From: Umbilicaria muhlenbergii
Lineage: Eukaryota > Ascomycota > Lecanoromycetes > Umbilicariales > Umbilicariaceae
Direction: 5' to 3'
Assembly: GCA_000611775.1 (NCBI GenBank)
Contig: KK106983.1
Location: 155,607 to 219,606 of the forward strand
DNA length: 64,000 bases
Part shown: piece after piece, positions 54,301 through 59,717 of the stretch
Layout: the number at the start of each line of letters is the position of its first letter
How positions within the stretch are numbered: position 1 is the stretch's first letter
Notes under the pieces: generated by a model
What the model was told of the DNA's origin: nothing
Database searches by the model: none
What the model saw: only the letters and a program-made list of their open reading frames with translations
Made by a program: the position numbers and the translations under genes

Positions 54301-57013
54301 CGCCAATTCCCGAAGTACCGGCGCTCTCTCCTACTCTGGTCCCTGCGCTACCGCAGCCAATGCCACCCAGCACTCCAGGGTCTGCTGGCTCTGCCGAGGA
54401 AATCGCATTCTTCGATCGAGTGAAGAAATTCGTCGCAAACCGGCAAACATTCAACGAGTTCCTGAAGCTCTGCAACTTGTTCTCGCAGGATTTAATCGAC
54501 AAAAATGTTCTAATACACAAGTCTGCCAGTTTCATCGGAGGTAATCCGGACCTGATGACTTGGTTCAAGAATTTCGTTCGATACGATGGCCGCGACGAGA
54601 TCATCGAGAACAAGCCAAAGCTGGCTACTGGCAAAGTCGTCCTAAGCAATTGCCGTGGCCTAGGCCCCAGCTACCGATTGCTACCAAAACGAGAACGACT
54701 TCGTGTCTGCAGTGGACGCGATGAAATGTGCATGGCAGTTCTGAACGACGAGTGGGCTTCCCATCCGACTTGGGCTTCTGAAGATTCTGGTTTTGTCGCC
54801 CATCGCAAGAACACTTTCGAAGAAGGCCTTCACCGCGTTGAGGAGGAACGACACGACTATGACTTCAATATCGAGGCATGCCTGAGGACAATTCAACTTT
54901 TCGAACCCATCGTCCAGCAAATCAAACTAATGCCAGAGGAAGAACGGAGCACGTACGTACTGCCTCGTGGCATTGGCGGCCAAAGCGAGACCATCTATCA
55001 ACGGGTCATCAAGAAAATATACGATAGAGAACGCGGCCAGAAGGTTATTGACGACATGTTCCTGAGACCGACAGCTGTCATCCCGATACTACTAGCAAGG
55101 CTGAAACAGAAGGTCGAGGAATGGAAAGCAAGCCAGCGAGAGTGGGAAAAGGTTTGGCGGGAACAGACTCAGAAGATGTTCTGGAAAAGCCTTGATCACC
55201 AGGGCATTAACGCAAAGAACGTGGACAAACGGCAGTTCCAGACGAAGACCATTCAAACCGAGATACAAGCCAAGTATGAGGAGCAGAAGCGTCAGCGAAC
55301 GATATCATGGAACAACGTACCAAAGTATCAATTCGAGTATATTCTCGACGATGTGGATGTAATTCAAGATGCATGTCACCTGCTGTTAACCTATCTGCAT
55401 CATTTTCATCCTGGCAATGCTGGAGACCAGTCCCGTCTGGAGAGTTTTATCAAAACGTTCATCCCAGTCTTCTTCGATCTTGATCGAGAGACCTTTGAAC
55501 GAAGAATGAGCGATTTCTTCGACGCTTCACCACCAAATGAAGAAGTGGACGATGGTTCGCCAAATCCAGAGGACTCAAGCGTGAGTCGAGGTCGTCGAGC
55601 TCTAAATGGGAGGAAGACGGACCTATTGAGAGGCGTTCTCGAGAAGGGAAAGCATGGCAGGGGTGGCAGGAAAGGAAACGACGGCAGCAGGGAGTCTACG
55701 CCTGGTGTCGGTTCCGCAATGGACGAGGACATGAGCATGACGTACGATACTCCGAACGAACACAACGCGCAAGTCGATCCGGCGGAACATAGGTGGATGG
55801 AGCACCCAGTGGGTGGCAACGGACGGAACCGACAGAATCCCAACGAACCCTTCGTACGGGAGACATTCAATCTCTACTGTAACCTGCCCATATATTGCTT
55901 CTTCAGAACTTTCCAGATCTTATGCGAGCGGTTCGCCCATATCAAAGCGAATGAGAAACAAGTGCACGACGATGTGCGCAGGGCCAAAGCACCAAAGGCT
56001 GCTCATGATTTGAAGATGGTGGACAAACTACCTTCGGATTTCTTTGCCGATACGAGCGTCCACGCCAACTATTACCAACAAGTTCTGAGGATGTGTGAAG
56101 ATCATCTGAAGGGCGAAATTGACATCAATCACATCGAGGAAACTCTGCGGCGGTTCTACTTGCAGAACGGGTGGCAGCTATATACTTTCGACAAGATGCT
56201 TGGCGCCATCATCAGGTTTGCTCTAGCCATTCTGACTAATGACAATAAGGAGAAGAGCAGCGATATCGTCAACCTCTTTTATAAGGATCGTAAAGACAAC
56301 GAGACAACTCATCGGACCGAGCTAGACTACCGGAAACAGGTTGAAAAACTCGTTAGAGAAGGAGACGTGTATCGAATCGCATTCGTAGGTACATCTAAAC
56401 CATAGAATTTACTAAAGAGACTAATGGCTTGCCACAGACCAAAGCCACAAAGCGCGTTACGGTGCAAATCTTCAAAAAGGAGGACAAAACGTTCGAAGCC
56501 GACGAATTGACCGGTCAATCAAGGTGGTCTTACTACGTCTCGACCTACATCATGCGCGACCAAACCGAAGGCGTCCCTTTAAGCAGTATCCGCTGGCCCT
56601 TCCTGAAACGCAATCTGCCTCCAGCGCTCGAGACGGCTGAAGACTACAACCGCATCTTCACCCCTCAATGGAATGAGGACGGCCTCTCCATCCGCATCTC
56701 CCCGAGTAACTACCACATCACGTACGACGAGGGCTCGAAGGATTGGTGGGTCCATGACAAGCAAGTCCGACGACGCGGGCTGAGGGCTATGGACGAGGTG
56801 AGGGAAGAAAGGCGAGGGAAATTCCAGGAGAAATTCGTGATGAATGTGCAGTGGATGGCCGGGATGAGTAAAGACGAGGTGGATCGGCGGAACGAGTCGT
56901 TTCGGAAATGGGTTAAAGAGGGCCCCGCGGCGATTGCGAATGATGAGGGGGAGGGAAAGGCTGACGAGGAGAAGGTCAAGGCGGATGGGGATGAGGTCAT
57001 GGATGGGACTTGA
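51360..57013 (+). CDS. SIN3: Transcriptional corepressor Sin3
   Basis: Sin3 is the scaffold of the Rpd3 histone deacetylase complexes in the nucleus. The start is at 51360 ([18 protein letters not shown]). The N-terminal 300 residues are Gln/Pro-rich, with a charged helix rich in Glu and Arg at about 51960-52110. PAH1 is [13 protein letters not shown]...[13 protein letters not shown]2 is [15 protein letters not shown]...FKQFLPES, and PAH3 is [12 protein letters not shown]...WFKNFVRYD. The HDAC-interaction domain ([31 protein letters not shown]) and the Sin3a C-terminal domain ([20 protein letters not shown]) follow. From PAH1 on, exons are 52629-52729, 52784-53498, 53552-54037, 54162-56384 and 56438-57013, in frame. 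An acceptor ending near 51704 and the exon ending 52458 are clear. The joins between 51470 and about 51592 are less certain; one candidate intron there is only about 42 bases with a weak donor. Confidence 0.94.
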
Positions 57014-57366
57014 TTGGTGTACTGTGCTTCTCCGGCAATTGTCCCGCGTGCATTTTCATGGCGTATGCGAGGGACTGGGTTATGTCTCGGGGTTGTAGGA
57101 TGGGCTCTGGGGATGTTGGTTCGTGGAGCTTGCTGTTCTGGATCGGATCGGGCGAGTCATGTGTTTTGTGGTTCTTGAGTATGTGTAACGGTCTTCGATA
57201 GTGGCAGGTGCGTATCTAAATTCAGATCGTTATTCTACCATTCACATATGAGTATGCGGAAGCTGATGATGCGTGGAACGTGTGGAGGTCGGCTTGCTAG
57301 AAGCTCCATTCACAAAAAAGAGCGCACTCAACAAGGTTGAGAAACAACTTGTACATTCAGTAGTAG
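57014..57366. other. SIN3 3' flank with outlying element motifs
   Basis: There is no gene here. Two copies of the motif seen inside the neighbouring mobile element (CCATTCACAnA) lie here too, near 57239 and 57306, outside its apparent left end. Confidence 0.55.
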
Positions 57367-58388
57367 GGTGTTACATCCCATTCGGAAATTATCCGATTGA
57401 TCAATTGGACGGTCCCATTCACAAATGCTCAAATAGATCATCCGGTTGATCAATCAAGCGTCCCATTCATAAACATGTGACTGTTTGTGACTCATACGGC
57501 TCATTGATCAATCTGCTCAGATGTTTATGAATCGGGCGTCTCACATATAATATTTAAGGTACATGTCAATATCTAACTACACATCTTCAAGTTTTTACTG
57601 TTGAGCCCCCTTCATCAGCTGGCATAAAGCCAGATATCAAATAGAGACCACTGCACAAGTATGACGATTGTGCTTTGATGATGAAGGCGGAGGTGAAGGG
57701 GAGAGGGAGGAGGAATTCAAATTCAACCAATCAAAACATTTATAAGACATAGTTAGCAAGCAACAGACCTGTCACGTATGAAGGAAGAACTATATGTGAA
57801 GAACCACCCCCTATTCAGCTCCTAAGCGAGCAGACCAGGGCTTAACCTCGCATCGAGGCCGCACACCCATTGACTAGGATATTAAGTGGAGACCCTTATA
57901 TATTGATCAGTGGCCCCCTTTAGATCGGCCACTGGTCAACTACTATTAGATATCAACACTTAGTATAGTACACGGCTACTCCTATAATCCTACTCCTCTA
58001 TTGATACCTGATCTCCACCTGGAGCCTTACATTGATCCACACGTGAGGCCAGTATTAAGGTCACTCACTTAATGCATTCAGTGAATACAGCCATTACCTC
58101 CTGCTACATTGTTTTAGTCTATTAGCTATTTGATGTAAACTATGTAGAAACTTGTGAATGATCCGTACGGCCTACAAACATCTATGTGTTTATGAATGGG
58201 GCGACCGAGTCACAAATTACTAAGTGTTTACGAACGGGGCGACCCAGTCACGAACGAATTATGAAAGCTACATTTGTGGATGGGGTGAGTTTGTCAATGG
58301 GCCGTACGAGTCTTGAACATTTGCCATGTTTTTGAATGGGGCGCCTGATTGATCAATCAGGCGTCATTTCCGAATGGGACGTAACACC
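57367..58388. mobile_element. Non-autonomous DNA transposon (MITE-like) with terminal inverted repeats
   Basis: The left end reads GGTGTTACATCCCATTCGGA. The right end, reverse-complemented, reads GGTGTTACGTCCCATTCGGA. Similarity continues with indels for about 60 bases, through a GATTGATCAATY block and a second CCCATTCA block. The interior (about 1 kb, AT-rich) has no transposase frame. Inside each end, a motif like TTTATGAATGGGGCG recurs in inverted orientation between the two halves: left near 57373, 57412, 57459 and 57520; right near 58182, 58221, 58271, 58327 and 58364. A perfect 22-base palindrome lies at 58342-58363. No clear target-site duplication flanks the repeats, so the superfamily is undecided. 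Confidence 0.8.
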
Positions 58389-58634
58389 ACGCTGTCATCG
58401 TGCAGGCAGCAAAATGGCTGTCCAAAAAGACTCACCACTGATAGCCTGACATGCCTCACAGCTCACCTGTGCGGCTATGCTTGCATCTCTGCCACCAAGA
58501 CTGCAATTTCCTCGATAGTAACAGTATATCTTTTCCATTTCTCACGTTTCCAGTCGCCACCGATTCAAGGACTGTTCGTCTCTATCCGTCTCTCACGCTT
58601 GCTGCAGAGGATCCGATCATCTGTTACTGTTGCA

Positions 58635-59717
58635 ATGCTCGAGTTTCCCACCACTCGCAGTGGCTGGCGTCTGGACATTGTCGGCCTGCTCGCCGTTCTG
58701 GGCGAGTCGGCCATGGTCGGCCACAAGCAGCCCATCACGTCGTCCTGGCTGTGTCTCCTCCCACGACTGATCCCCGCCCCGCAGGCGATGCTGGGGTTCA
58801 AACGACCGATCCGCCTCCCGCCGCAGCAAACGCTGGTGCACACGGTCGGCGCGCATTCGGGCTGGCACCAGGGCGAGCTCAAATACTTTGCCAATCTGCT
58901 GCAACCGATTGCGGGACTGCGGGCGTTTGAGATTCAGGAAATCAGCATCGGCCGCGTGGAGGAAACCACCCTGCCTCGGGCCAAAACGTATTCGCCGCTT
59001 GCTTTTCTGACGGTGGGGACGTCCCTTCTGACTCTCGGCCTGTTGGTGTGGTCGATCGTCATTCATGATGGAGCTGCTTGTCTTGCCATCTGTTTCTTGA
59101 GTCTGACATCCTCCGTCGCCGGGCTCGGGTCGTTCTGGACCCCCGAGCTCATCGTCCGTCGCAGAAACACCGACACGCCGCCTGGAGATGTGATTGTCCA
59201 CGGCCGGAACGGATCTTTCATTATTGTCCGTTGCGAGGAACACGTGGCACGAGAACTCTACGCCGCGACAGATTCATGCAACTACCGATGCGGCCCTCAA
59301 GTGTTTAGGGTCTGCGTCGGAATGAGCACCTTTCTGCTGATGGTAGCCGTGCTGCTATTAGGCAACTGTATCTGGGTGATGCAAGCCGCAATTGGGGTTT
59401 CTTACATCTTGCTCAACGGCCTCTATCAGATAGCTGCGCTGTTGCCGACGCATTGGCACTGGGATCTGTCGCGGTATGTCGTTACGAAACAGCCATCCAG
59501 ACAGCACAACCACTTTCAGGAAGCCTTGTGGGACGTGATGAAGACAACAAGAGTTGTTCAATGGGCGAGGATAAGCCGGGCAGTACCGGAGTCGAAAGCC
59601 TGGGATGACTGGATGGCCTTGGCTGAGCAACATATAGTGGACGGGACTGAATGGGACCCAAACGTCGGTTGGGATCAGTGTTGGCAGAATCGCAAGGTTG
59701 AAGAGGGTATCATGTGA
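58635..59717 (+). CDS. Fungal four-helix membrane protein of unknown function
   Basis: I do not recognise a named family. ATG at 58635 (MLEFPTTRSGWRLDIVGLL) gives 360 residues in one exon. Two hydrophobic hairpins are visible: LAFLTVGTSLLTLGLLVWSI with AACLAICFLSLTSSVAGLGS, and VGMSTFLLMVAVLLLGNCIW with GVSYILLNGLYQIAALLP. Between them is a soluble stretch with a conserved-looking GRNGSFIIVRCEEH. The C-terminal 90 residues are soluble, with a Trp-rich DWMALAEQH segment. The frame is open further upstream to an ATG at 58374, inside the mobile element's right terminal repeat, but the added 87 residues are low-complexity and are probably leader. The gene converges on the HET-domain gene. Confidence 0.7.
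   Translation: MLEFPTTRSGWRLDIVGLLAVLGESAMVGHKQPITSSWLCLLPRLIPAPQAMLGFKRPIRLPPQQTLVHTVGAHSGWHQGELKYFANLLQPIAGLRAFEIQEISIGRVEETTLPRAKTYSPLAFLTVGTSLLTLGLLVWSIVIHDGAACLAICFLSLTSSVAGLGSFWTPELIVRRRNTDTPPGDVIVHGRNGSFIIVRCEEHVARELYAATDSCNYRCGPQVFRVCVGMSTFLLMVAVLLLGNCIWVMQAAIGVSYILLNGLYQIAALLPTHWHWDLSRYVVTKQPSRQHNHFQEALWDVMKTTRVVQWARISRAVPESKAWDDWMALAEQHIVDGTEWDPNVGWDQCWQNRKVEEGIM

Follow-up and report, generated by a model that had tools for sequence, protein, structure and literature searches.

The window, the whole 64,000-nucleotide stretch of Umbilicaria muhlenbergii DNA analysed here, corresponds to C3:155607-219606 of a 34.8-Mb assembly in seven contigs. Situated between genes within it is a non-coding element bounded by 21-bp terminal inverted repeats (TIRs) with the consensus TGTTAC(A/G)TCCCATTCGGAAAT. 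Comparison with other ends of the same multi-copy family set its limits at 57369..58386 (1018 bp), with the left TIR, TGTTACATCCCATTCGGAAAT, at 57369..57389 on the forward strand and the right TIR, TGTTACGTCCCATTCGGAAAT, at 58366..58386 on the reverse strand. A sequence-only reading had described an inverted-repeat element at 57367..58388; the element is real, but its true limits lie two bases inward on each side, since the outermost GG is absent from the ends of other family copies. Positions 57367-57389 and the reverse complement of 58366-58388 were identical at 22 of 23 bases, compared with a maximum of 14 in 500 dinucleotide shuffles. Beyond these 23 bases the match requires a gap (33/60 bases ungapped, 80-81% over about 59 bp gapped), in keeping with the earlier description of a 20-base match with one mismatch that becomes looser over about 60 bases.

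The longest stop-to-stop stretch lying wholly within the element was 57 aa, and the three stretches scanned, among the four of at least 40 aa in the window copy, gave no Pfam match above the cut-off, which agrees with the proposed absence of an internal gene. Since no Rfam family reached its gathering score in 56800-59000, a known structured RNA was rejected. A mechanical 447-aa reading frame (58374-59717) begins inside the right TIR; should it be a real gene, the insertion would lie in its 5' region or immediately before it. A Sin3-like gene, together with genome size and the presence of AT-rich blocks, points to a filamentous ascomycete.

Inward from an end, the TIR is followed after a few bases by a TGATCA-centred palindrome of up to 22-24 bases and then by CCCATTCAYAAAY, giving an ordered subterminal arrangement of GATTGATCAATC palindrome and CCCATTCAYAAAY-type motifs with a frequent spacing of 37-38 bp. 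We scanned for motif A as CCCATTCATAAAC with up to three mismatches and for motif B as GATTGATCAATC with up to one. Motif A was found at 12 sites in the window element, 10 of which point inward for their half and two in the opposite direction, against a mean of 0.43 and a maximum of 4 in shuffles (n=500) and a maximum of 3 in other 1022-bp segments of the window (n=243). Motif B was found at four sites (eight strand-hits), against a shuffle mean of 0.012 and maximum of two strand-hits, and none in the other segments. At least nine copies of the first motif, mainly inverted between the halves, and four of the palindrome had been claimed from the sequence, and both arrays stand far above chance.

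The palindrome copies lie at 57395..57406 (GATTGATCAATT), 57444..57455 (GGTTGATCAATC), 57502..57513 (CATTGATCAATC) and 58342..58363, the last being perfect over 22 bases, as had been stated. The left motif A array has its first unit inside the TIR, its second (CCCATTCACAAAT) at 57414..57426 and a further unit (CCCATTCATAAAC) at 57462..57474, all on the forward strand, and a site of opposite orientation lies at 57523..57535 on the reverse strand. The right array spans 58188..58340 on the reverse strand, with starts at 58188, 58226, 58272, 58289 and 58328 and the last unit in the TIR at 58366; two of its sites fall in a 38-bp tandem repeat of 2.2 copies at 58174..58255. Measured from the end, the CCCATT motif starts at 9, 46 and 94 in the window left end, at 9, 47, 86 and 103 in the window right end, and at 9, 46 and 84 in the left ends of both the C1 and the C4a copies (see below). 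Steps of 37-38 bp between units are common; two ends include one of 17 bp, and two include one of 48-49 bp.

Genome-wide, exact GATTGATCAATC occurred at eight sites, all eight inside family copies, whereas the reversed control pattern had a single site. Across nine ends, 93.9% of cells in the palindrome arms were paired, and 4 of 11 pairs had changed on both sides, versus 0-1 when the partner was slid by 1-3 columns. The observed paired percentage and covariation score were each reached in 1 of 500 shuffles and the number of pairs in 16 of 500; another of the five measures, further pair types (7, shuffled mean 7.6), supports nothing, because 479 of 500 shuffles reach its value. CpG decay on both strands could mimic part of these symmetric changes, and the changes in the C4a copy are, by eye, mostly of the C-to-T type.

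Among the matches listed, we found at least 13 ends (including a duplicated C1 right end) at a minimum of nine loci in the assembly, and a tenth locus with interior sequence only; the counts of copies and ends are lower bounds. Multiple copies with the same ends had been named as a check of the mobile-family interpretation, and the window sequence is indeed not single-copy. Three loci are two-ended: the window copy (C3:212975-213992, 1018 bp), the C1 copy (C1:10228038-10228918, 881 bp), of which a second right end lies 325 bp beyond the first, and the C4a copy (C4:1497159-1498052, 894 bp). Three are truncated, with one end and adjacent family sequence (C3:2284792, C5:2346467 and C4b at C4:867717), and three are isolated ends (C7:669647-669667, C4:1511662 and C1:10388560-10388580). 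The C2 copy (C2:4141351-4141908) is interior only. An end profile built without the C7 and C4:1511662 ends scored them at 18.4 bits (E 1.9e-4) and 19.1 bits (E 1.1e-4), respectively, over 147 kb. The end at C1:10388560-10388580 (L052) was counted because it agrees with the left-end type over 17 bases and in the TTATCCGA that comes next, and is the weakest of the 13 because the profile does not report it.

The ends start with TGTTAC in 12 of 13 cases and with TATTAC in one. Alignments between copies stop at the TIR, and the 12 flanking bases differ between ends, except for the two tandem-duplicated C1 right ends. Within one element the two ends are inverted copies over about 57-62 bp (81-89% identity), with the arrays pointing inward. 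The interiors are shared only in part: window positions 57510..57794 align in blocks with the C2 copy (77-94%), the C1 interior is shared with C4b (89%) and over a short block with C4a (80%), and C4a shares a block with the window element (82%) near the right array. Such a combination of common ends with mostly unlike interiors is the pattern of an internally rearranged family mobilised in trans. A 325-bp tandem duplication (L017:5260-5750) copies the C1 right end and its flank, and a 13-bp tandem array (CTCTCTAGGCACG) adjoins it.

The 13 ends were taken from 31 matches to the TIR pattern at up to three mismatches, compared with nine for the reversed control. We inspected and rejected 10 of the other 18 sites, none of which the end profile reports: L054 has neither module, three belong to one other repeat, three to a second repeat, and three are mutually unlike and unlike the family. 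At the last eight, the 21 bases are identical to those in members of the second repeat. A sequence, TATGACATCTCATTCAAACAT, recurs at 10 places (C1:1059770, C1:1263924 and C2:5216974, for example) with a variant at C1:2614572, and by the end profile it is unrelated to the family in three copies (L071, L072, L078).

The left flank of the C4a copy belongs to an interspersed repeat for which at least 14 other places were listed. In all 10 of these that were fetched (L060-L069), the repeat runs continuously through the insertion point, which identifies C4a as an insertion. An empty site, another check that had been proposed, is thus available in paralogous form for the C4a copy, although the target is incomplete: the repeat resumes to the right of C4a only after a gap of about 150-190 bp relative to the other copies, and the exact join is ambiguous. 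We aligned nine of the ten uninterrupted repeats, omitting L064 for its identity with L063 across 672 bases. AATG flanks C4a on both sides; on the left, seven of the nine aligned copies have AATG natively, and on the right all nine have its ATG (as CATG or TATG). Given the missing sequence and these native bases, the 4-bp duplication is not clean, and in the simplest order of events this copy of the repeat would first have suffered a deletion and then received the element, 4 bp of target being duplicated. The host repeat (L060-L069 and C4:1496683-1497158) contains CTGAACA-type short tandem units. C4a itself lies in AT-rich DNA (31-42% G+C); the stretches C4:1492500-1502400 and 1511600-1518600 have this composition, compared with 52% in the window, and an excess of CA/TG dinucleotides that resembles the outcome of CpG decay more than that of classic CpA-directed RIP.

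A 26-bp remnant on C7 (TGTTA-...-TAACA), in which one TIR is complete and only TGTTA survives from the opposite end, has CGTG on either side. With lengths of 2-11 bp checked, neither the window copy nor the C1 copy showed a target duplication, which leaves one of three two-ended copies (AATG, ambiguous) and one remnant with a duplication. Four-base repeats near C5, C4b and the isolated C1 end, noted by eye, were dropped as uninterpretable because the second end is missing. The C1 copy is not recent, since it has itself been entered by a 203-bp TG...CA insert, which is flanked by a separate 5-bp duplication (GTCTA) and is related to a repeat at several other loci. That repeat (C1:10228253-10228455 and L056-L059) is 203-224 bp long and LTR-like (TGTGAGCGG...GCCTGACA), with 5-bp duplications in two of four measured copies (GTCTA and AAGCT).

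A longer copy with a transposase gene had also been suggested as support, and none emerged in this assembly from TIR pairs or from the genome-wide domain search, which covered the rve family alone. The TIR pattern search of the genome gave no further closely spaced inverted pair at up to three mismatches. The 41 rve matches listed all fall more than 10 kb from any family locus; the nearest is separated by 15.5 kb from the end-less C2 copy. Six stop-to-stop stretches reach 75 aa in the 7 kb behind the C4:1511662 end, and none had a Pfam match above the cut-off; one is faintly zinc-finger-like (17.2 bits, cut-off 28). A decayed partner at this place was dropped, as these stretches gave no transposase domain. 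Many MITE-like families have no known autonomous partner, and the missing partner therefore does not exclude an element of this kind.

Taken together, ends and subterminal arrays common to separate loci, interiors that differ in part and the one insertion into a repeat define a family that is real and of an ordinary kind. The window element very probably belongs to a family of non-autonomous, MITE-like TIR DNA transposons of about 0.9-1.0 kb that is present in few copies, now mostly truncated or decayed, and is probably inactive. Like MITEs and other non-autonomous TIR transposons, these elements are short and gene-less (the window copy has no coding capacity), have inverted ends common to several copies at unrelated places, differ in their interiors and are inserted in other sequence; unlike MITEs in general, they are few and 0.9-1.0 kb long. 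Against this assignment stand the missing transposase partner, the low copy number, a target duplication at only one in three two-ended copies, and the loss of target sequence at C4a.

The kind of enzyme that moved the family is a separate matter. The TGT...ACA ends and the 4-bp duplications hint at an integrase-type (Ginger-like) enzyme: excerpts of PMC2836005 and PMC10045372 give Ginger1 and Ginger2 TGTNR...YNACA ends and 4-bp (sometimes 5-bp) duplications, a pattern matched by the TGTTAC starts of 12 of 13 ends (the other being TATTAC) and by the lengths of AATG and CGTG, and Ginger1 and Ginger2/Tdd also resemble the family in having TIRs of tens of bases (PMC2836005). However, Ginger1 targets CCGG/CCGT and Ginger2 targets RTATAY according to the same source, and AATG and CGTG, two sites only, fit neither preference. 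There is no transposase to place, and no rve match listed lies near a family end. As these two defining features, an integrase near the ends and the target sequence, were tested and did not hold, we did not file the family as Ginger, and we consider membership possible but unlikely. Duplication length alone cannot decide the enzyme, because about 4 bp is also given, in the portions of PMC10045372 consulted, for IS256/MuDR (4-10 bp), AcademX (3-4 bp) and Harbinger kin (0-4 bp). More specifically, the ends might belong to an undescribed fungal integrase-type group whose enzyme reads a combination of TIR, symmetric palindrome and motif, recurring about every 37-38 bp (about 3.5 helical turns), the paired changes preserving the symmetry because two subunits bind the palindrome; this we regard as improbable.

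Repeated subterminal motifs are known transposase-binding sites in hAT and Mutator-like elements, and those elements, like CACTA, carry arrays of short motifs, of either orientation, beside the TIR, as here. The likeness to hAT and Mutator is one of analogy only. The target duplication is 8 bp in hAT, 2-3 bp in CACTA and usually 8-11 bp in Mutator-like elements, whereas the duplications observed stop at 4 bp and none of 8-11 bp was seen at the three two-ended copies (lengths 2-11 checked). We set hAT membership aside on the absence of the 8-bp duplication, and the TIR sequence differs from those of hAT, Mutator-like and CACTA elements. Only 4-bp duplications were seen. A Mutator-like enzyme has low odds too; the IS256/MuDR range reaches 4 bp in PMC10045372, as excerpted, and length alone does not separate the family from that type. 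Mobilisation by a hAT or Mutator-like transposase is thus doubtful. Solo LTRs of a retrotransposon would share the TG...CA termini, and LTR elements are given 3-6-bp duplications (PMC10045372, in part); on C4, family ends at 1497159 and 1511662 have the same direction, with 14.5 kb between them. Against this stand the long inverted ends with inward arrays and the differing interiors. The whole C4a copy as query gave no match at C4:1511662, where only about 36 bases match, and the other same-orientation neighbours are the C1 tandem duplication. We found no full-length direct-orientation pair around a retrotransposon body among the family copies, and an LTR-type TG...CA repeat of this genome has 5-bp duplications in two of four measured copies. 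Solo LTRs were rejected on end structure and are very improbable. Least credible of all is host regulatory or structural DNA, a palindromic protein-binding array spread by segmental duplication: the element lies between genes and its palindromes are kept symmetrical, but the flanks differ between ends (bar the duplicated C1 pair), alignments stop at the TIR and one copy interrupts a repeat.

For the non-autonomous transposon family, we infer mobilisation in trans by a transposase reading the TIR and the array. Such a transposase, made elsewhere and perhaps since lost or decayed, would bind the TIR and the subterminal palindromes and motifs, probably sitting as dimers on the palindromes. It would then cut the element out or copy it, and joining to staggered target DNA would leave a 4-bp duplication.

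The 21-base TIR string was not found in the literature text searched, and keyword searches of listings and abstract openings returned nothing recognised as this family; no name was found there, and the sequence-only reading had matched the combination to no family that it could name. Exact TIR matches were likewise absent from IMG/VR and from the prokaryote collection, which says little about a fungal element. The analysis adds a compactly defined transposon family and of itself changes little. If the enzyme is integrase-type, the family would extend a superfamily with one fungal vestige, in Malassezia globosa, named in the part of a 2010 survey consulted (PMC2836005). Since one 12-mer marks most well-kept copies genome-wide, the ends are specific enough to trace the family in other fungi and to find its enzyme.
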